This document shows, piece after piece, positions 7,297 through 16,371 of a stretch of DNA of 32,955 nt. Numbering within the stretch: the stretch's first letter is position 1; every line of letters begins with the position of its first letter. A program made the translations under genes and the position numbers. This DNA comes from Pseudomonadota bacterium. GTDB lineage: Bacteria > Pseudomonadota > Gammaproteobacteria > Burkholderiales > JAKAFK01. The notes under the pieces were generated by a model. The model saw only the letters and a list, made by a program, of their open reading frames with translations, made no database searches and had not been told where the DNA came from. Location: positions 1 to 32,955 of the forward strand of contig JAKAFK010000046.1 of NCBI GenBank assembly GCA_021817985.1, in the 5' to 3' direction.

Positions 7297-7980
7297 GTTT
7301 TATCCTTTCTCGAGCTGTTCAGGTTTCGTGAGCCCTTGCACGCGCCCACCCGGGATTTGCTGCATCAATCGTCATTCGGCGGTGCCGGCCGCACCCGTCC
7401 CGCATTGAGGATCCGATTCGGGACGTTCGGCCCAAGACCCACGATCTGTCGCGCAGGCACGGCGGAAGTATCGAGACCAGTGCCCCTGCGCTGTCGGAAA
7501 CGACGGGCCGCTCGGCTTGGGACCAAAGCCTCAGGCTGGCGGCGGCCTATCCCGGAAGCAGGCTCGAGACAAGGGCGTGTTTTCTCGACTGGGCGTAGAT
7601 GGCGTTCAGGCTCCCCAGCGCAAAGCCTGCGAGCCCAGAGCGGGCTGGGCGCGGCCATCAGGCAAAGCGCGGTGTCAACGGCTCTCCCCCCCGGGGCATA
7701 AGCCAAATCCATGCCAGCATCTGTCGCACCCTGTTTATAAGCCATTATTGGACCTATTGGGATGCTCTTCGAATGCGCAAAATTGAGCAGCTCTGCAAGA
7801 ATTGTCTGCAGAGGCTGCAGGCCGAGGCCAATGCGGGTGCTCCGCGAGCAGCGCTTTCGGGCGGTGAGAACGATGGCGCGGAAACGCGTCTTTCTGCTGC
7901 GACCTGCAAGTCGCATAAGTTTCTGTTTCACAGGAGGTTATATGATCTGATGAAACCGGCCGTTCCATCGGCCGTTCCCT
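7297..7980. other. Gene-free stretch, left edge of accessory island
   Basis: No convincing gene is seen in these 684 bp. The 188-codon minus frame at 7365-7931 has arginine- and proline-rich, non-protein-like composition. Another minus frame gives a short protein-like piece (LAGFALGSLNAIYAQ around 7620), but a stop breaks it soon after. This may be a decayed gene. The part from about 7730 is less GC-rich. A short tandem CGGCCGTTCC occurs around 7960-7980. Confidence 0.4.
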
Positions 7981-7989
7981 ACCCGGCAC

Positions 7990-8434
7990 GTTGATTTGGT
8001 AAATCGGCGTGAAGCTCTGGGGACAATGTAGCCGCTGAGGTATCAGAACGTCAAACCGCGAGGGGCGACGGAATCCGCCAGCACCAAGGCAGAGAGGCGC
8101 TAGGGGCGAGTGGGTACGACCAACACACGTGAACTTTCGATAAACGCCGTTACGCGTGACAAGCCAAAGGTGCTGAAAGGCTTGAACCAAAAGGTATGCG
8201 GTCGGGTATGACCTCCCTCAGAAATGGGGTCATCATGGACAAAGCACCGCCGGCGAACTGGAAGGGTCCGCACCGCTCGGAAACTTATGTGGAACAGGGT
8301 AAACCAGTAGTGCCGCCGGATACCCTCCGCGCATGGGTGCGGACATCAAGTTGCTGAACGAAATTCTTCTCAAAGACGCGAACGATCGGCGTATGCGCTT
8401 CAAGAATGGGGCCGACGGGCCATCGTTCACATGA
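7990..8434 (+). mobile_element. Candidate group II intron fragment (5' RNA part, no reverse transcriptase)
   Basis: The segment reads as structured RNA rather than protein. Short helices follow one another: CTGA/TCAG at 8035-8046, AAGCC/GGCTT at 8161-8183, TGACC/GGTCA at 8209-8232, TCCGC/GCGGA at 8326-8343. The text around 8281-8310 (CTTATGTGGAACAGGGTAAA) and 8328-8345 resembles, from memory, the domain I-III region that precedes the reverse transcriptase gene in bacterial group II introns. No reverse transcriptase frame and no credible domain V follow, so it would be a truncated remnant. Ends are approximate. The family call rests on recall and was not tested by alignment. Confidence 0.4.
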
Positions 8435-8647: not shown

Positions 8648-8986
8648 TCACAGCTGGATCAGCGCCACGATCTTCGCCAGCACCTCACCCAGGATGTCAT
8701 CGCCTACCGCCGCCACCCTCACGGCCCGCCGCACAACCCAATCCAGACTGGCTACTTGGTCCGAGAGCACGGCACCCGTAACCGGGCCTTCGGGCAACAA
8801 CACCTCGAAGGGATAACCCTTCACCTTGTTGGTGATGGGGCACACCACAGCGAGGTTCGTCTTGCCGTTGTACCCCTTGGTGGACAGCACCAGGGCCGGA
8901 CGGCGACCGGACTGTTCGTGGCCCGCTTGTGGGTTGAAGTCGAGCCATACGATGTCGCCGCGCTCCGGCACGAACTTCGCCACCAT
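8648..8986 (-). CDS. mazF: MazF/PemK-type endoribonuclease toxin
   Basis: This 112-residue protein of the MazF/PemK family is the toxin of a type II toxin-antitoxin pair; it cuts mRNA. Family motifs are clear: PERGDIVWLDF near the N-terminus, the catalytic region H-E-Q-S-G-R-R-P-A-L-V-L-S, CPITNKVKGYPFEV, and VLSDQVASLDW. The start MVAKFVPERG was chosen because its ATG overlaps the antitoxin stop by one base (TGATG), a sign of translational coupling. The open frame runs about 12 codons further upstream inside the antitoxin gene. All key regions are present and the length is normal, so the toxin is probably functional. It lies in an island of broken mobile elements. Confidence 0.93.
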   Translation of the reverse strand: MVAKFVPERGDIVWLDFNPQAGHEQSGRRPALVLSTKGYNGKTNLAVVCPITNKVKGYPFEVLLPEGPVTGAVLSDQVASLDWVVRRAVRVAAVGDDILGEVLAKIVALIQL

Positions 8987-9231
8987 CAGGACACCACCTC
9001 GCGTCCCACCGGGTGCCCCCAATCCATGGCCTCGTGGCGGTTCTCTTTGGTGATGCCCGCCAACAGGTCATCCAGCTTATAGACCGGTTTAGCCGACGGT
9101 TCGATCACGATCCGGCCGTCTTCGGTCCTGAGTTCCACAGGGGCGCCCACAGCTAGGCTCAATTGCGCCAGCATTGAGGCAGGAAGCCGCACCACAGCTG
9201 AGTTACCCCACTTCTTGATTTCGGTTCGCAT
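8986..9231 (-). CDS. mazE: MazE/PemI-type antitoxin (AbrB fold)
   Basis: This 81-residue antitoxin is first in the operon. Its N-terminal AbrB/MazE DNA-binding swapped-hairpin motif is typical: MRTEIKKWGNSAVVRLP, then ALG-like segment LSLAVGAPVELRTEDGRIVIEP. The C-terminal tail (KLDDLLAGITKENRHEAMDW) is the part that in this family wraps around and blocks MazF. The start is the ATG before R-T-E-I; upstream codons in the frame lie in the promoter region, so the longer frame is not used. Antitoxin and toxin overlap as TGATG. As in other mazEF loci, the MazE-MazF complex probably represses its own promoter. Confidence 0.92.
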   Translation of the reverse strand: MRTEIKKWGNSAVVRLPASMLAQLSLAVGAPVELRTEDGRIVIEPSAKPVYKLDDLLAGITKENRHEAMDWGHPVGREVVS

Positions 9232-9256
9232 CACAATGCCTCGCTCTAGTCCAAAC

Positions 9257-9293
9257 GTAGCTACATTGTATCCTCGTCTCGCCAATGTTGCAA
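9257..9293 (-). promoter_or_regulatory. mazEF promoter with start-site palindrome
   Basis: On the minus strand there is a -35 TTGCAA (9288-9293), a 17-bp spacer and a -10 TACAAT (9265-9270), a good sigma-70 match. The perfect 8-bp palindrome GTAGCTAC (9257-9264) follows directly, at about the transcription start, where a MazE-MazF complex could bind. The mazE ATG lies about 26 bp downstream of the predicted start site. Confidence 0.7.
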
Positions 9294-9497: not shown

Positions 9498-9767
9498 TCA
9501 GACGACCAAAAAGAACCTGGGAAAATCGGGGGCTTTGAACCTTAGGAAGCGACCGACGTTACACGCAAGGAACTCGTTCACGGCGGCGGACGCTGCGGCC
9601 ATGTTGAGCGAGATCACGGCCGGCCGGTCTACGCTCACGCCTTTAATGTACCCCTCGCGTTTCAAGCGCTCGTATTCCTGTGGGCTGTCGCGCCGCATTA
9701 ACGCCGCCTCGAGATCTCCTTGGTCATAGACGCGCCGACTTTTGAGGCTGGAGCCACCCGGTTGCAC
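9498..9767 (-). pseudogene. ThiF-family gene fragment (C-terminal part)
   Basis: The frame encodes about 89 residues. Its middle (VYDQGDLEAALMRR, then EGYIKGVSVDRPAVISLNMA and A-S-A-A-V-N-E-F-L-A) matches, from memory, the C-terminal end of the adenylating domain in ThiF/HesA/MoeB-like proteins, where P-V-I-S-x-N and A-V-N-E-F-L-A are conserved. The nucleotide-binding and catalytic parts are missing: the frame begins right beside the IS3-type transposase remnant at 9772. The last 20 residues (CNVGRFLRFKAPDFP and on) do not look like the family, so the 3' end also seems replaced. It is most likely a dead fragment cut at both ends. Confidence 0.55.
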
Positions 9768-9771
9768 GGTA

Positions 9772-9907
9772 TGGATTGCTAAGGAACCCCTGGGCTATAT
9801 ACCTCCAGCAGAAGCTGAGGCAAACTACTACCGGCAACTCGCCAGTCAGGCCGCCATCACGGCATGACTTAAACCAACCAGCCTCCACGGATCCTGGGAC
9901 GGTTCAG
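9772..9907 (+). mobile_element. IS3-type transposase 3' end and terminus, remnant
   Basis: In the plus strand the frame from 9772 reads W-I-A-K-E-P-L-G-Y-I-P-P-A-E-A-E-A-N-Y-Y and ends R-Q-L-A-S-Q-A-A-I-T-A with a TGA at 9865-9867. This is the typical C-terminus of the orfB transposase of one IS3-family group (L-G-Y-x-P-P-A-E-A-E-x-x-Y-Y). The bases after the stop (CTTAAACCAACCAGCCTCCA to about 9907) fit the terminal part of such elements, where L-K-P-x-S-L can be read. The DDE catalytic part and left end are missing. Its left limit abuts the ThiF fragment. Confidence 0.65.
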
Positions 9908-10051
9908 TGCAGGTGAAGTCAGTGTGGCGGATCGTGGCCGAGTTTTCATGTATCCTACGTGCAGCCTCACCTCCTGCCGAAAAGTGGCTGCTTGGGCGCT
10001 CCCGGACTCTGGCGCCTTCCCTTTCGAAATACACCATAGTATGGCTGCCAT

Positions 10052-11296
10052 ATGACACATACGCCGCCGCGCGATATTCTGGACGCGCCCGATGTTGCCC
10101 GCGAGATCGTCTCAATCTACGATCTTTTACTCAACCGCAATCCTGACGCTGCCGAGTTCCATGAAGGAATGCTGAGTCTGCTTTCTGGAATCCAGCGTGA
10201 CGAATTTTTCCGCCAACTCGCCGGAACTGACGAAGCAAGCGAGCGCTTCCTGAACAACCCAAACTTTGGATTGTTGATCAATCGACTCCTCGACTCCACA
10301 GGCCAACGAACGGGCATTCAGAGGAAGCCGCACATTGCGTGGAAGGCTGAGCATAGGCCGTTGTGCAGCGATGACCCGGTCAGCATCATGCAGATCGAGT
10401 TAACGAATGAGTGCCCGTTTCGATGTGTCATGTGCCCTCGTACGAAGCACATGACGCGTGCCACGGGGCGTATGGATTTCCATCTTTTTCGCAAAATCAT
10501 TGACGAACTTGCCACCATTCGCCCGGACTACGCCCGCACGCAACCCCCGATCTGGCTTCACCATTTTGGCGAAAGCCTGATCCATCCCCAGTTTGGCGAA
10601 TTCATTCGCTATGCCAAGTCGCACGGCATTCCGACGGCAATGTCGATCAACCCGCTGATGCTTAACGAACGTATTTCAGCGGAGTTGCTGGACGCCGAAC
10701 CGCAGGCACTCTACCTGTCCCTCGACGGACATGACGACGCCAGCTTTGAGCGGATTCGTGGCATACCAAGGGCCTACGAGAAGTCCCGTCAGAGGTTGCT
10801 GCGATTCCTTGAACACAAGGTAGACCTCGGCGTAAAAACTCATATGACATTGTCGGTTATTGATTTCGTCCTTAATGGCGACGAAGGCAGCAGTCAACGG
10901 GTCAAATTGGAGAATTATTGGCGAGCCGTCCCTGGCGTGGACGAATTCCTATGGAAAGCCTACGGGACATTTTCGGGCGAAATAGCGCGCATCAACGAGC
11001 TTGCCTGCCCATCAGAAGCGGTGCAAATAGCCCGCCGCTACAAGGATGTATTCCGGGTCACCTGCGATTTTCCTTGGCGGCGAATGGTTGTCACCTGGAC
11101 TGGGTCAGTTGTTCCCTGCTGCCACGATTACGACGTAAAGATGCCGCTCGGTGACTTGCGTACTCAGAGCCTCGAGGAAATCTGGAACGGAGAAAAAATG
11201 CTGGCGTTGCGCCAAGAACTTATCTCCGGTGAGATTGCCAACCCTGTCTGCCGCGACTGTGAACATCGCTACAAAAACAATCCGCGTGACGAATAA
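10052..11296 (+). CDS. Radical SAM/SPASM protein with DUF4214-like N-terminal domain
   Basis: This 414-residue protein has three parts. Residues about 13-75 resemble DUF4214 (EIVSIYDLLLNRNPDAAEF ... EFFRQL ... FLNNPNF), a helical repeat found in surface and glycan-linked proteins. Residues about 112-310 form a radical SAM core with the CxxxCxxC cluster motif C121-C125-C128 (TNECPFRCVMCPR). The C-terminus is a SPASM-like auxiliary iron-sulfur domain with C338, C356, C357, C400 and C403 (VVPCCHDYDVKMPLGDL; VCRDCEHR). Radical SAM/SPASM enzymes modify peptides, cofactors or sugars; no precursor peptide or glycan gene is adjacent, so the substrate is unknown. The gene is visibly less GC-rich than its neighbours and stands between two IS3-type remnants, which suggests transfer. 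The start lacks a strong ribosome-binding site. Confidence 0.85.
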   Translation: MTHTPPRDILDAPDVAREIVSIYDLLLNRNPDAAEFHEGMLSLLSGIQRDEFFRQLAGTDEASERFLNNPNFGLLINRLLDSTGQRTGIQRKPHIAWKAEHRPLCSDDPVSIMQIELTNECPFRCVMCPRTKHMTRATGRMDFHLFRKIIDELATIRPDYARTQPPIWLHHFGESLIHPQFGEFIRYAKSHGIPTAMSINPLMLNERISAELLDAEPQALYLSLDGHDDASFERIRGIPRAYEKSRQRLLRFLEHKVDLGVKTHMTLSVIDFVLNGDEGSSQRVKLENYWRAVPGVDEFLWKAYGTFSGEIARINELACPSEAVQIARRYKDVFRVTCDFPWRRMVVTWTGSVVPCCHDYDVKMPLGDLRTQSLEEIWNGEKMLALRQELISGEIANPVCRDCEHRYKNNPRDE

Positions 11297-11371
11297 GGAA
11301 GCAGATCCACGCTCAGATTATGCTGCTTGACCCGCACGGGCCTCAAGGCAATTTCTCCGGTTGGACCCCGA

Positions 11372-11417
11372 TGGCCACTTCAAATTCCCCCACCTGTGGC
11401 CGGGTCAAATTCCCCCA
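11372..11417. repeat. Two near-identical 21-bp direct repeats, IS-end-like
   Basis: TGGCC-ACT-TCAAATTCCCCCA (11372-11392) is followed after four bases by TGGCC-GGG-TCAAATTCCCCCA (11397-11417). Closely spaced repeated sites of this kind occur at the ends of some insertion sequences as transposase-binding sites; repeats with this TGGCC/TCAAATTCCCC flavour are seen, from memory, at termini of IS21-type elements. It adjoins the transposase remnant that follows. Confidence 0.5.
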
Positions 11418-11558
11418 GGTTTCACAGTTGAACAACCTTGCTGCACGAACTCGTTCGGGGGCAGGTCAGGCGAGACTGCTGTGCGGCCGTACCTCGTTGT
11501 AATGCCGCCGCCATTGCTCGATGACGAACCAGCGTGTCCGTTCGGTGATCCGAGAAAG
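11405..11558 (-). mobile_element. IS3-type transposase C-terminal remnant, frameshifted
   Basis: Read on the minus strand from 11558, the frame gives L-S-R-I-T-E-R-T-R-W-F-V-I-E-Q, then WRRHYNEVRPHSSLA and a stop at 11466-11468. In another frame the sequence continues L-P-P-N-E-F-V-Q-Q. The joined text N-E-V-R-P-H-S-S-L-A-(Y)-L-P-P-N-E-F is the classic C-terminus of IS3-family integrase cores. One extra base near 11465 explains the break. The catalytic D-D-E part is absent. Its orientation is opposite to the other remnant at 9772-9907. Confidence 0.7.
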
Positions 11559-11624: not shown

Positions 11625-12116
11625 ATGGAGCAGGGATTTCAAGTCTTCGAACGGGGCATCGACCGGGTGGCCGAGGCGCTTCCCGAGCTTCCGAGGCAAC
11701 AGGTGATCCTTACAAGGCTCTATTTCTTCCTTTTCCGCAGGCTCAACGACGGCCTCAACCGCATGCTCTCCGACCATGGCCTCAATACCACCACGATGCT
11801 GGCGCTGACGATGATTTATGCCCGGCCGGACCACAAGATCATTCCGTCCGACTTGAGCCTCGCGCTCACCTCATCGCGCACAAACGTCACCCGGCTTGCC
11901 GACGAGCTGGTCGCCAATGGCTGGGTGGAGCGGCAGGCGTGTCACGAGGATCGGCGCAAGATCTTTCTCTGCCTGACTTCACTCGGATGCTCGCGCGTCG
12001 AGAAAGTCCTCCCGCGCCAGTGGGAGCACGTCAAACAGGTCTGGAGTTGCCTGAGCCCGGAGGAAGCCACCCTCTTCGAGTCCTTGCTTAGAAAGCTCCT
12101 GGGTCATCTGGAATAG
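11625..12116 (+). CDS. MarR/EmrR family transcriptional repressor
   Basis: This 163-residue winged-helix regulator heads the efflux operon. The MarR fold is visible: helices FFLFRRLNDGLNRMLSDHGL, the DNA-recognition region S-D-L-S-L-A-L-T-S-S-R-T-N-V-T-R-L-A-D-E-L, and the wing with the conserved D-R-R-K (CHEDRRKIFLCLT). Family members such as EmrR/MprA repress their linked pump and are released by phenolic or lipophilic drugs. The downstream gene starts 13 bp after the stop, so regulator and pump are co-transcribed. The palindrome at 11597-11608 is the likely operator. Codon use returns to the GC-rich host pattern here, which marks the right edge of the accessory island. Confidence 0.9.
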   Translation: MEQGFQVFERGIDRVAEALPELPRQQVILTRLYFFLFRRLNDGLNRMLSDHGLNTTTMLALTMIYARPDHKIIPSDLSLALTSSRTNVTRLADELVANGWVERQACHEDRRKIFLCLTSLGCSRVEKVLPRQWEHVKQVWSCLSPEEATLFESLLRKLLGHLE

Positions 12117-12129
12117 CCTAGAGTCCCTC

Positions 12130-13629
12130 ATGATGCCTTCCGTCCGCCCGACCCGCACTCCCCTTCGCGCTGCGCTCGCCGCAGGCCTGGCGCTGTTGGG
12201 CAGCGGCTGCGCGACGTTGCCGCACGACGGTGCCCGTAGCCGATTGTCCCAGCCCTACTCCGTCCGGCGGGAGGTTCAGGCGCTGAGCGCCGCCGGCCTC
12301 TCGCGCCGCGATGCGTGGCCGGCGCCCCGCTGGTGGCGCGCGTTCCGCGACCCCCAGCTCGATCGCATCGTGGCCGAGGGCTTGGCGGGCAACCCGACGC
12401 TCAAGGTGGCGGCCGCCCGCCTGCGGCTGGCGGAATCCCAGGCGGCGCTCGCGCGCGCCGCCACTTTGCCCTCACTCGACGCCCAAGGGGAGATCGACCG
12501 TCAGCGCCTGAGCGACAATGGCCTCATCCCGCCCCCGTTCGCGGGGGCTGCGCTGACCACCGGCCAGCTGGCGCTCAACGCCAGCTACGATCTGGACTGG
12601 TGGGGCAAGAACCGCGCGGCGCTGCGGGCCGCCTTGAGCGAGGCCCGGGCGGCCCGGGCGGAGAGCGCCGCAGCGCGCCTGCTGCTCAGCACGGCAGTGG
12701 TCGGCGCCTATGTCTCCTTGCAGGCGGACGGCGAGCGCCTGGACGTGGCCAAGCACGCCGCCGCCGACCGAAAGGCCTTGGCCCTGCTCGTGGACGCCCG
12801 CGTCGACCACGGGCTCGAGGACGTCTCGGCTTTCGATGAGGCGGCTGCGGCGCGCGAGCGGGCGCACGCGCAGGTGATCGCCGCGCAAGCGGCCGTCGCG
12901 CTGGATCGGCAGCGGTTGGGCGTCCTGATCGGCAAGGGCCCCGATGCAGGGGCCGGCATCGCCATGCCCCGCCTGTCGCTTCCGGCCGCCCTGACGGTGC
13001 CCGAGCGGCTGCCTTTGGAGCTGCTGGCACGGCGTCCGGACTTGGCTGCCCAGCGCGCGCGTGTCGAGGCGGCTGCGCAACGCATCCACGTGGCGCGGGC
13101 AGGATTCTACCCGGACATCAACCTGGCTGCGATGGTGGGACAGCAAAGCTTCACCCTGGGCCAGCTGCTCGCGCCGAGCAGCCGCATGGGCTCGATCGGG
13201 ATTGCGGTCGACTTGCCGATTTTTGACGGCGGGCGCCTGAGGGCGGTCCTGCACGCGCGCAACGCCGAGTACGACGCCGCGGTCGAGACCTATAACGAAC
13301 TGCTGCTCACGGCGGCGGGCGAGGTCGCCCATGCGCTGACGCGACTCCAGGCCGTGGCCCGCGAAGGCCGGGCGCAGCGGGCTGCCGAAGCGAAGGCAAA
13401 GCAGGCCTATGGGCTGGCGAGGGTGCGCTATACCCATGGGCTCAGCAGCTATCTCGATGTGCTGCAAGCGGAACAAGAGCTTCTTGCGGCACACGAGGCC
13501 GTCGTCGCCGTCCGGGAGGCAGAACTCCATGCGCGCGTCGAGCTCGTGCAGGCGCTCGGCGGCGGTTTTGTGGCTTCCGGCCGCCGGCCGGCCACCGGTC
13601 CAACAAGGGGATCCCATGCCAGACAATGA
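12130..13629 (+). CDS. NodT-family outer-membrane efflux lipoprotein (TolC-like)
   Basis: This 499-residue outer-membrane channel belongs to the OprM/NodT branch of the TolC family. The N-terminus has a lipoprotein signal ending in a lipobox with Cys27 (LALLGSGCATL). Two repeated efflux domains follow: the first with WWRAFRDPQLDRIVAEGLAG and N-P-T-L-K-V-A-A-A-R-L-R, the second with ARRPDLAAQRARVEAAAQRI. The typical G-x-x-x-x-P and DLDWWGKNRAALRAAL motifs are present. With the following EmrA and EmrB it makes a full MFS-type tripartite pump. The end overlaps emrA by 14 bp. A second ATG follows directly after the first; either may be used. Confidence 0.93.
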   Translation: MMPSVRPTRTPLRAALAAGLALLGSGCATLPHDGARSRLSQPYSVRREVQALSAAGLSRRDAWPAPRWWRAFRDPQLDRIVAEGLAGNPTLKVAAARLRLAESQAALARAATLPSLDAQGEIDRQRLSDNGLIPPPFAGAALTTGQLALNASYDLDWWGKNRAALRAALSEARAARAESAAARLLLSTAVVGAYVSLQADGERLDVAKHAAADRKALALLVDARVDHGLEDVSAFDEAAAARERAHAQVIAAQAAVALDRQRLGVLIGKGPDAGAGIAMPRLSLPAALTVPERLPLELLARRPDLAAQRARVEAAAQRIHVARAGFYPDINLAAMVGQQSFTLGQLLAPSSRMGSIGIAVDLPIFDGGRLRAVLHARNAEYDAAVETYNELLLTAAGEVAHALTRLQAVAREGRAQRAAEAKAKQAYGLARVRYTHGLSSYLDVLQAEQELLAAHEAVVAVREAELHARVELVQALGGGFVASGRRPATGPTRGSHARQ

Positions 13630-14815
13630 ATCGGAGGCAACCCGAATGCCCGGTACCTCCAAGCGCCCGGCGCCGCCCAATGCCCGGCGCCGGCGACTGC
13701 TGGTCGGCCTGACGCTGGCGATCGTTGTCGCCGCCGCCGGCGCTTTTGCCTACTGGTGGCTCGTGGCGCGCTATCGCGTGACCACCGATGACGCCTATGT
13801 CGGCGGGAACATTGTGCCGGTGGCGCCACAGACCGAAGGAACGGTGGTGTCCATTGCGGCCGACAATACCGATCACGTGAGCCAAGGACAACTGCTGGTG
13901 AGGCTGGATGCCGCCGACCGCAGGCTTGCCCTCAAGGTGGCCGAATCGCGGCTTGCGCGTGCCGTGCGCCAGGGGCGGCAGCTCTATTCGACGGTGCGCG
14001 AGCTCAAAGCGGAACTCGCGGTGCGCGCGAACGACGTCCGGCGCGCACGGGAGGACTGGGTGCGCCGACAGGCGCTCATCGGGCTGAAGGCCGTCTCCCG
14101 GGAGGATCTCGAGCATGCGCGACGGGCCTACGAGGCCGCCGTGTCGGCGCAAGGCGCGGCGCGCGCGCGCCTGCGGGTCGCGACGGCCATGACCGAGGGC
14201 ATCCCGCTGCTGCGCCAGCCGGCCATCCTCGCGGCCGAAGACCGCCTGCGCCAAGCCTATCTGGACTTGCGCCGCACGCGGATCGAAGCCCCGGTGACAG
14301 GGTATGTGGCCGAGCGCACCGTCCAGGTCGGCGGGCGGGTGCACGAAGGACAGCCGCTCATGGCGATCATTCCGCTCAATCACCTGTGGGTCGACGCCAA
14401 CCTCAAGGAAAACCAGCTCGACCGCGTGCGCATCGGGCAGCCGGTGGTGCTCACGTCCGACGTCTACGGCAGTTCGGTGCGTTTCCACGGACGCGTGGAG
14501 GGCCTGGGGGCGGGCACCGGCAGCGTGTTTTCCGTGCTGCCCCCGCAGAACGCGAGCGGGAACTGGATCAAGATCGTGCAGCGGGTGCCGGTGCGCATCG
14601 CCCTCGACCCCGCCGCGCTCAAGCGCCATCCGTTGCGGGTCGGCCTGTCGATGGACGTGAGCATCGACACCCACAACCTCGCCCTGCCGATGCTCGCCGG
14701 GCCAAGCGCGCCGCGCACGCGCTACCAGACCCCGATCTATCACGCCGCCGATGCCCCCGCCGAGCGCATCATCGCGGCGATCGTGCACGCCAGCCTGGGA
14801 TCGGCGGCCCGTTAG
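13616..14815 (+). CDS. emrA: EmrA-type membrane fusion (HlyD family) protein
   Basis: This 399-residue periplasmic adaptor links the inner-membrane transporter to the outer-membrane channel. A single N-terminal transmembrane helix (about 24-46, LLVGLTLAIVVAAAGAFAYWW) anchors it. The barrel-sandwich/lipoyl half-motifs are seen in TTDDAYVGGNIVPVAPQTEG and RIEAPVTGYVAERTVQVG. Between them lies a long alpha-helical hairpin, and DANLKENQLDRVRIGQPVV is typical of EmrA. The start MPDNESEATR is preceded by AAGGGG and overlaps the NodT gene by 14 bp. The frame is open well upstream inside NodT, but that is shadow sequence. The 17-bp gap to emrB supports one operon. Confidence 0.93.
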   Translation: MPDNESEATRMPGTSKRPAPPNARRRRLLVGLTLAIVVAAAGAFAYWWLVARYRVTTDDAYVGGNIVPVAPQTEGTVVSIAADNTDHVSQGQLLVRLDAADRRLALKVAESRLARAVRQGRQLYSTVRELKAELAVRANDVRRAREDWVRRQALIGLKAVSREDLEHARRAYEAAVSAQGAARARLRVATAMTEGIPLLRQPAILAAEDRLRQAYLDLRRTRIEAPVTGYVAERTVQVGGRVHEGQPLMAIIPLNHLWVDANLKENQLDRVRIGQPVVLTSDVYGSSVRFHGRVEGLGAGTGSVFSVLPPQNASGNWIKIVQRVPVRIALDPAALKRHPLRVGLSMDVSIDTHNLALPMLAGPSAPRTRYQTPIYHAADAPAERIIAAIVHASLGSAAR

Positions 14816-14832
14816 CGCAAGGAGGCGCGGAT

Positions 14833-16371
14833 ATGGCGGAAAGAGCGCCCCTGCACGGCTCGGCGCTGGTCCTCGTGACCCTGGCGATGGGGCTGGGCGC
14901 GTTCATGCAGGTCCTCGACACGTCCATCGCCAACGTCTCGATCCCGGCGATTGCGGGCGACCTCGCGGTGAGCCCGGATCAGGGCACCTGGGTGATCACC
15001 TCGTTTGCCGTGAGCAATGCGATCGTCCTCCCGATCACCGGCTGGCTTGCCAAACGGGTGGGCGAAGTCCGCCTGTTCATCCTGTCCACGCTGGCGTTCA
15101 GCATCGCCTCCTGGCTGTGCGGGCTGGCGCCGAATCTGCCGCTCCTGGTCTTCTTCCGTGTCCTTCAGGGGGCGGTGGCCGGCCCCATGATCCCGATGAG
15201 CCAAACGCTGCTGCTGTCCAACTATCCTCCGCACAAACGCGGCATGGCGCTGGCCCTGTGGTCCATGACGGTGGTCACCGCGCCGATCTTCGGCCCCATC
15301 CTGGGCGGCTGGATCACCGACAACATCAGCTGGCCGTGGATCTTCTACATCAACATCCCGGTCGGCATGTTTTCCGCCTACCTGACTTGGCAGCTTTTGC
15401 GCCATCGCGAGACGGAGATCGTGAGAAGGCCCGTCGACATCGTCGGGCTGGCGCTCCTGGCGATCGGGATCGGCAGCTTGCAAGTGTTGTTGGACAAGGG
15501 CAACGACCTCGACTGGTTCGGCTCCACGACCATCGACGCCCTGGCGGTCGTCGCGGCCGTAGCCCTAGGCTATTTCGTCGTCTGGGAACTCACCGAGAAG
15601 CATCCGGTCGTCGACCTGCATCTGTTTTCGCGGCGCAACTTCGCCGTCGGGACGCTGACCCTGAGTCTGGGTTACCTCACGTTCTTCGGCAACGTCGTGG
15701 TCTTCCCCCTCTGGCTGCAGACCCAGATGGGCTACACGGCGACATGGGCGGGGCTTGCGGCGGCGCCTATCGGCCTGCTGTCCATCGTCTTCTCGCCGAT
15801 CGTGGGGCGCAATTTGCACAAATTCGACTTGCGCATCCTGACCAGCGTCGCATTCCTGGTGTTCGCAGCGGTCTCGTTCTGGGCGTCAGGCTTCGACACC
15901 AGCGTGAGCTATGCCGAACTCGTGGCGCCCCGGCTCGTGCAGGGGATCGGCATGGCGTTCTTCTTCGTGCCGCTGGTGAGCATCACCCTCTCGGGCATCC
16001 CGGCGGAGCAGGTGGCGAGCGCCTCGGGCATCTCGAATTTCGCGCGCATTCTGGCGGGAAGCTTCGGCACGTCCCTGAGCATCACGCTGTGGACTCGCCG
16101 CGCCCAATTCCACCAAGCCATGCTCACCGACCCCCTGACGCCGTACAGCCCAGTGGCCACCCACGCCCTGGACCTCCTGCGTGAGCGAGGATTGTCCAGC
16201 GGGGGGGCGCTGGCAGTCCTGGCGCGAACCCTCGTCCAGCAGGCGGTGATGCTGGCCACCAACGACGTGCTCTGGCTTTCCGGCTGCATCTTTCTTGCCC
16301 TTCTCGCCGCCGTATGGCTTGCGCGCCCGCCGTTCATGGTGGGCGGCGGCGCGGGCTCGGACGCCCACTGA
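14833..16371 (+). CDS. emrB: EmrB-type drug:proton antiporter (MFS, DHA2 family)
   Basis: This 512-residue inner-membrane transporter has about 14 predicted helices. It begins at MAERAPLHG after a strong AAGGAGG site. DHA2 motifs are present: LDTSIANVSIP (28-38), GWLAKRVGEVRLF (motif A-like), R-V-L-Q-G-A-V-A-G-P (motif B), and P-I-F-G-P-I-L-G-G-W (motif C of antiporters, about 151-160). It should use the proton gradient to expel lipophilic toxicants through EmrA and the NodT channel. The actual substrate is unknown. About 150 bp of intergenic sequence follow, containing GC-rich inverted repeats such as GGCGGCCGCC near 16424 but no clear terminator. Confidence 0.94.
   Translation: MAERAPLHGSALVLVTLAMGLGAFMQVLDTSIANVSIPAIAGDLAVSPDQGTWVITSFAVSNAIVLPITGWLAKRVGEVRLFILSTLAFSIASWLCGLAPNLPLLVFFRVLQGAVAGPMIPMSQTLLLSNYPPHKRGMALALWSMTVVTAPIFGPILGGWITDNISWPWIFYINIPVGMFSAYLTWQLLRHRETEIVRRPVDIVGLALLAIGIGSLQVLLDKGNDLDWFGSTTIDALAVVAAVALGYFVVWELTEKHPVVDLHLFSRRNFAVGTLTLSLGYLTFFGNVVVFPLWLQTQMGYTATWAGLAAAPIGLLSIVFSPIVGRNLHKFDLRILTSVAFLVFAAVSFWASGFDTSVSYAELVAPRLVQGIGMAFFFVPLVSITLSGIPAEQVASASGISNFARILAGSFGTSLSITLWTRRAQFHQAMLTDPLTPYSPVATHALDLLRERGLSSGGALAVLARTLVQQAVMLATNDVLWLSGCIFLALLAAVWLARPPFMVGGGAGSDAH

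Follow-up and report, generated by a model that had tools for sequence, protein, structure and literature searches.

An orphan radical SAM enzyme of BtrN-like twitch type with a DUF4214-like N-terminus: a candidate surface-glycan sugar enzyme of apparently foreign origin in a Burkholderiales genome

The window analysed here, a stretch of 32,955 nucleotides that makes up the whole of contig C45 of a Burkholderiales draft genome (184 contigs), contains a solitary gene for a radical SAM enzyme between remnants of insertion sequences. The locus raises the question of which chemistry and which class of substrate can be predicted for this enzyme, and of where its gene came from. We favour, with a probability of roughly 0.6, the reading that the gene encodes a BtrN-like radical SAM enzyme of the twitch type that modifies a surface-glycan sugar (a sugar nucleotide or a glycan-bound sugar), and that it was acquired horizontally as a single gene. 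The features of the locus are summarized in Table 1.

Table 1. The enzyme gene, its domains and its flanking elements (positions in the window)
Feature	Position	Strand	Basis or remark
IS3-type transposase tail remnant, left	9798..9907	+	92% identical to same-genome stretches with rve and HTH_21 ORFs
Radical SAM/twitch enzyme gene with DUF4214-like N-terminus, 414 aa	10052..11296	+	ORF, Pfam, alignment
DUF4214-like segment, residues about 12-66; Pfam model positions 26-72 only (later part)	10085..10249	+	below Pfam cut-off
Radical SAM core, residues 115-263; cluster Cys121/125/128	10394..10840	+	Pfam, alignment
SPASM-family 'twitch' domain, residues 338-404; C338, C356, C400 and C403 as proposed auxiliary-cluster ligands	11063..11263	+	Pfam, conservation
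Short repeat common to other contigs, right	11364..11419		right-hand element 11364..11527 listed (-)
IS3-type transposase tail, right	11413..11527	-	93% identical to same-genome stretches with rve and HTH_21 ORFs

The enzyme gene is intact (no internal stops), as the original prediction had it, and the open frame comprises 418 codons in total, so that the start of translation cannot be located much further upstream. Two Pfam domains were assigned above their cut-offs, Radical_SAM (PF04055; E 1.8e-12, 48.2 bits, cut-off 29.5) and SPASM (PF13186; E 4.7e-18, 65.7 bits, cut-off 21.5). With NCBIfam, the best 25 of 40 matched families (PqqE, mycofactocin, AhbD heme synthase, tungsten-enzyme maturase and others) all scored under their curated cut-offs. 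A scan of the 352 bases before the gene (9700-10051, + strand) for sigma-70-type sites gave no promoter-like site.

The cysteines of the CxxxCxxC motif (C121, C125 and C128) are conserved in 13 of 13 aligned sequences, together with C338, C356, C357, C400 and C403; in a wider set the invariant cysteines (24 of 24) are C121, C125, C128, C338, C356, C400 and C403. Such a pattern is consistent with a radical SAM cluster plus a single four-cysteine auxiliary cluster (twitch type), both of which are predicted. The 'several auxiliary cysteines' noted originally are present and invariant, but they fit a single four-cysteine cluster only. A full two-cluster SPASM enzyme was considered and rejected, since only four auxiliary cysteines are invariant in the 24 relatives and C357 is invariant in the closer 13 alone.

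The catalytic part is BtrN-like (twitch), as judged from sequence comparison and from the predicted fold. BtrN (2-deoxy-scyllo-inosamine dehydrogenase of the butirosin pathway; 4M7T, 4M7S) was the top PDB match with the single sequence (E 1.6e-14) and also with a profile (E 2e-37, 132.2 bits), for which the best chain other than BtrN was SkfB (E 9.6e-20). The predicted model of the full protein has a mean pLDDT of 77.1, with most of residues 111-270 and 341-390 near or above 90 and with low values for residues 301-340 and the N-terminus. With this model, BtrN was retrieved first by Foldseek (E 5.7e-12), followed by DesII, and first by VIA (Z 21.0, rmsd 3.0, 228 aligned), where DesII (Z 20.1, within 1 Z) is tied with BtrN by the rule of the tool. 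SpeY and AprD4, radical SAM enzymes of aminoglycoside pathways, were present in the structure lists with weaker matches than BtrN (SpeY, Z 13.1 in VIA; AprD4, E 9.5e-5 in Foldseek). BtrN and the window protein have in common a CxxxCxxC core followed by a four-cysteine twitch domain, at 17-24% identity in structural alignments; C357 and H358 of the window protein align with F and E in BtrN, and the BtrN chain of 270 aa, unlike the window protein, has no space for a DUF4214-like front. In PMC9012708, BtrN is described with one auxiliary cluster of four cysteines and with an aminocyclitol of an antibiotic pathway as substrate.

A scan of 84,980 species genomes yielded 19 loci with relatives of the enzyme, of which the closest eleven (L004-L014) were taken and eight weaker ones (L015-L022) left out; the eleven are from Azospirillum, Asticcacaulis, Niveispirillum, Nitrospinota, Elusimicrobiota and Woesearchaeota records, with 39-52% identity over the best segment. 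Together with two plasmid loci, of Azospirillum TSA2s (L031, 47.5%) and Roseibium (L032, 34.4%), they constitute the 13 close relatives; 12 of 23 matching plasmid records were opened. The radical SAM/SPASM enzymes of Azospirillum TSA2s (WP_169054779.1) and Roseibium (WP_289809013.1) belong to the same family as the window protein (48% and 34% identity) and share its invariant cysteines, but their genes lie among or near sugar genes, and a DUF4214-like N-terminus was not found in them. In a tree of 24 rows, the window protein grouped with the Azospirillum, Asticcacaulis/Niveispirillum, Nitrospinota and Elusimicrobiota rows (99/98), outside a nine-row subgroup of these (91/85) and on an end branch of 0.96.

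The genome context of the homologues, to which the original prediction had looked for shared glycan or peptide genes, was found to be of a glycan type at 12 of the 13 close-relative loci (at least one carbohydrate gene within the stretch available); this is a common kind of context and not a pathway of proven function. The one locus with no carbohydrate gene, L013, is a contig of 10.7 kb. Glycosyltransferase genes are near the enzyme gene at L004, L006, L008, L010, L011 and L014 (L011 by its 98.8% identity to L010), and DegT aminotransferase genes at no fewer than seven of the 13 loci (L005, L007, L009, L010, L012, L031 and L032; all but L006 were tested); the Roseibium locus also contains heptose genes. 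As a yardstick, the 11 DegT matches in the 3.97 Mb of the host correspond to about 5% per 20 kb, compared with 7 of 13 loci, which is a rough estimate with no matched control. The counts overstate the independence of the loci, because the Azospirillum loci are related and L010 and L011 are nearly identical. The latter two, in Asticcacaulis and Niveispirillum bins, have 98.8-99.7% protein identity over their common cluster, which indicates a recent transfer or a mis-binned contig.

Among ten more distant plasmid relatives, seven were found in glycan-type loci (L034, L035, L036, L161, L162, L164 and L165) and three without an obvious glycan locus (L033, L160 and L163). The Brachyspira hyodysenteriae plasmid locus (L164) comprises seven radical SAM/SPASM genes and sugar genes within 17 kb; in PMC4267127, one block of a Brachyspira plasmid that includes a radical SAM gene is linked to genes for rhamnose and glycosylation. 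The literature searches made retrieved no work that joins radical SAM/SPASM enzymes with O-antigen and glycosyltransferases.

Two other gene associations were observed at these loci. A conserved protein is encoded directly 3' of the radical SAM gene at seven of the 13 loci (L005, L006, L008, L009, L010, L011 and L013), whose FkbM match is sub-threshold at best (L005), with none in the first part of the L011 protein. CsgG-type (curli assembly) domains are encoded near the radical SAM gene in Elusimicrobiota (L007, 214-2250) and on the Azospirillum plasmid (L031, 10546-12141), which may be coincidence.

A set of three genes, for the radical SAM enzyme, a methyltransferase and a DegT aminotransferase, recurs at L005, L009, L010, L031 and L007, in Azospirillum, one Asticcacaulis bin and one Elusimicrobiota bin. 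In the Elusimicrobiota locus (L007), the enzyme gene is directly followed by the gene for the methyltransferase (extended at its C-terminus by a part that looks cupin-like by eye) and the DegT gene; at the other four loci, the methyltransferase and DegT genes adjoin each other, separated from the enzyme gene by about 2 to 13 kb. The Elusimicrobiota and Azospirillum (L005) proteins are 59% (DegT) and 43% (methyltransferase) identical. The closest solved relatives of the Azospirillum aminotransferase are perosamine synthetases (E 3.9e-95), and those of its methyltransferase are CalS10, an N,N-dimethyltransferase and an N-methyltransferase. The Elusimicrobiota methyltransferase has an unnamed SAM methyltransferase as its top solved match, followed by seven N-methyl- or N,N-dimethyltransferases, of which four are named for dTDP-3-amino-3,6-dideoxyglucose. 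In NCBIfam, the methyltransferases score best with a model of daptide (RiPP) methyltransferases, without reaching its threshold (for L005, 86.3 compared with 175).

For the enzyme itself, the reaction is most likely a BtrN-like alcohol dehydrogenation, reaction and substrate class both being deduced from BtrN and from the neighbourhoods of the relatives. A [4Fe-4S] cluster on C121/C125/C128 would cleave SAM to the 5'-deoxyadenosyl radical, which would abstract a hydrogen from a hydroxyl-bearing carbon; by homology to BtrN, the substrate radical would then be converted to a ketone, with its electron passing to the auxiliary cluster on C338/C356/C400/C403. In the relatives, to judge by the company of their genes, the nearby DegT aminotransferase could aminate this ketone and the methyltransferase could N-methylate the amine. 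Originally, substrate and role of the enzyme had been called unknown and the enzyme the best candidate for an undescribed activity; this is too open, since the BtrN likeness and the neighbourhoods of the relatives narrow the chemistry and the substrate class, without fixing the reaction.

It is possible, though we doubt it, that the protein is a sugar enzyme of the same context with DesII-, AprD4- or NeoN-like chemistry, one that deaminates, deoxygenates or epimerises an amino or hydroxy sugar; the auxiliary cluster would then play an assisting part, with no net two-electron oxidation. DesII (8HZV, 8HZY) resembles the window protein in the fold of the core and of the C-terminal domain, and its second place in Foldseek and its tie with BtrN in VIA mean that dehydrogenation is not singled out by the fold. 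In desosamine biosynthesis, DesII keeps company with DegT aminotransferases and amino-sugar N-methyltransferases, and the company of the relatives described above matches this. In sequence, however, DesII scored well under BtrN (E 1.7e-4 with the single sequence; 60.6 bits with the profile, about 70 bits less), and the NCBIfam DesII model (TIGR04426) gave 23.4 for the window protein, far under its cut-off of 450.

In contrast to the genes of its relatives, the window gene has no recognised glycan gene nearby in the window, nor was a precursor-like peptide gene recognised beside it among ORFs of at least 60 aa, as had been stated originally. Also as predicted, it is flanked by two transposase tails in opposite orientation, which face each other around it; the rve and HTH_21 pair in the matching same-genome ORFs we take to be that of an IS3-type transposase. 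The additional claim that no transporter is beside the gene was wrong: a typical multidrug-efflux operon, with a MarR regulator followed by outer-membrane efflux, HlyD-type and MFS genes (11625-16368, + strand), starts about 330 bases downstream of the enzyme gene, past the right tail, and because of this operon the original observation is confirmed only in part. A MazE-like antitoxin and PemK/MazF-like toxin pair (8648-9285, - strand) lies between the left tail and a group II intron D1-D4-7 remnant (7956-8100; Rfam RF02012, 95 bits). The region 7898-8323 is about 72-77% identical to plasmid records (best 30 of 1963).

The GC content of the enzyme gene is 0.542 and its GC3 is 0.628, compared with means of 0.670 and 0.848 (minima, 0.601 and 0.785) for ten chosen window genes, which bears out the lower GC and foreign composition of the original prediction; the MazEF-like genes, outside this ten-gene set, are under its mean as well (GC/GC3 of 0.643/0.792 and 0.583/0.660), so that low GC is not confined to the enzyme gene. 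Elsewhere in the host, a low-GC (0.51-0.56) surface-glycan cluster is located at about 24000-41000 of contig C8 (L168/L169); its ten tested ORFs include NeuB, two DegT, Epimerase_2 (UDP-GlcNAc 2-epimerase) and ABC transporter genes. Nine ORFs of this O-antigen-like cluster have a mean GC of 0.542 and GC3 of 0.624 (ranges, 0.491-0.586 and 0.541-0.726), the same as the enzyme gene; the tenth, a GT2 gene whose surroundings have a GC of about 0.6, was left out of this composition set. The composition of the enzyme gene thus fits a surface-glycan origin, without proof of it.

Among 60 genomes searched, own genome included, a match to the enzyme at E<=1e-20 was found in the own genome only; in a phylum sample of 398 genomes two matched at E 1e-40, and in a class sample of 369 genomes three matched at E 1e-60 (own genome included in both). 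A phage gene was rejected as an explanation, with a search of 50,697 phage records giving nothing at E 1e-5; matches on viral contigs cover the C-terminal domain only (8 loci) or, in a second search, are distant (27% identity for the best among 80 of 142 matches). The enzyme gene is thus apparently foreign, and was probably acquired horizontally as a single gene.

No close DegT orthologue was found in the host draft (matches of 30-36% identity), where the methyltransferase of the set gave short and unconvincing matches only (best E 8e-9 over 78 residues). As these partners were not found, the enzyme would here work in trans or on a different sugar, or be idle, and its present activity is uncertain. 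A second, fragmentary SPASM-type gene, with two stops and at a contig end, was observed on host contig C183 (190-564, - strand; L002/L171), at 28% identity to the window protein.

The gene may accordingly be an immigrant that arrived with mobile elements and whose frame was kept without substrate or partners in the host, an explanation to which we give limited credence. The orphan position between IS3-type remnants, the confinement to the own genome among the 60 searched, the partners not found in the draft and the lack of a promoter-like site just upstream are all in its favour; however, neither the frame nor the conserved motifs are damaged, partners could be missing from a draft of 184 contigs, and the NeuB- and DegT-containing cluster of the host could be served in trans. 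The probabilities given to these readings overlap, for an idle gene is compatible with descent from a sugar enzyme.

That the enzyme is a RiPP maturase acting on a peptide is very improbable: the SPASM-family domain, the SkfB, SuiB, ChlB and sactipeptide-enzyme entries of the structure lists (ranked under BtrN and DesII) and the sub-threshold daptide match of the relatives' methyltransferases would speak for it, but the cysteine pattern fits one auxiliary cluster and not two, no precursor-like ORF was seen beside the gene among those of at least 60 aa, no peptide-recognition domain was found in the Pfam matches (three families) or the best 25 of 40 NCBIfam matches, and the relatives are located with sugar genes.

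A surface-glycan enzyme of BtrN-like type is the reading that we retain; the lack of a recognised glycan gene near it in the window, the host partners that were not found, the tie with DesII, the daptide-model match, the L013 locus, the three plasmid loci that are not obviously of glycan type, the kinship among the counted loci and the lack of a promoter-like site just upstream count against it.

The N-terminus sets the window protein apart from its relatives. The original prediction of a DUF4214-like domain was sustained as a likeness: with residues 1-108 as query, Pfam DUF4214 (PF13946) matched residues 21-66 with 16.2 bits (E 0.011), under its cut-off of 23.2, and with 12.9 bits when the whole protein was used. 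A DUF4214 profile was also built for the same order, from 18 of 30 fetched loci (8 of 100 genomes of the order carry the family); it gave 23.2 bits for the window segment, compared with 4.9 bits for the best of 2000 shuffles, and hhalign aligned the segment to it with a probability of 92% (residues 12-65). By sequence, the N-terminus is thus DUF4214-like, partial and divergent, beyond chance, and no formal member of the Pfam family. In the PDB, residues 1-108 had no match better than E 0.65. The predicted model of residues 1-100 alone (mean pLDDT 46.9) was too poor for a fold search, and in the full model pLDDT was about 50-67 for residues 1-80 and about 36-41 for residues 81-100; the structure-comparison lists barely probe this part.

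DUF4214 was not found in any of the 12 relatives aligned with the window protein. Among 105 radical SAM ORFs in 85 loci, 36 have more than 50 aa before the domain, and the four DUF4214 matches among these all stem from the window gene, which is contained in several overlapping loci (L001, L069, L073 and L157), so that no other relative showed the fusion; this negative result rests on a relaxed threshold, a stricter first one having missed the segment of the window protein itself. Sequence searches with the N-terminus gave a sole plasmid match, in an unannotated record (E 0.3), and in the phylum a sole other match, a 695-codon frame that by eye encodes a repeat protein (E 0.006). No work joining DUF4214 with radical SAM enzymes was found in the literature searches made.

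In one protein of the same order (L042), DUF4214 lies N-terminal of a GT2 glycosyltransferase domain, and because of this pairing the DUF4214-like front of the window enzyme may be a docking or accessory segment; DUF4214 is found as well in many other open frames of the order, of up to 4478 codons, so that this precedent is no rule. The unusual parts of the system are this front and the recurring gene set of the relatives. The interpretation attached to the locus at first was half right: the gene is an orphan and encodes a fusion enzyme of foreign origin, yet the class of chemistry and of substrate can be predicted. A bolder proposal, which we consider unlikely, places the window protein in a small family of radical SAM enzymes that is transferred from phylum to phylum and that, jointly with an aminotransferase resembling perosamine synthetases and an N-methyltransferase of the amino-sugar type, makes an undescribed (N-methylated) amino sugar for surface glycans; the window copy would have gained its DUF4214-like module, which would dock it to the glycan machinery of the host, where the enzyme would tailor the glycan in trans.

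Twitch-type radical SAM sugar enzymes of known reaction are mostly from antibiotic pathways. The gene set that recurs in Azospirillum, the Asticcacaulis bin and the Elusimicrobiota bin would extend twitch sugar chemistry to ordinary cell-surface sugars, and the window copy adds a possible DUF4214 tether.
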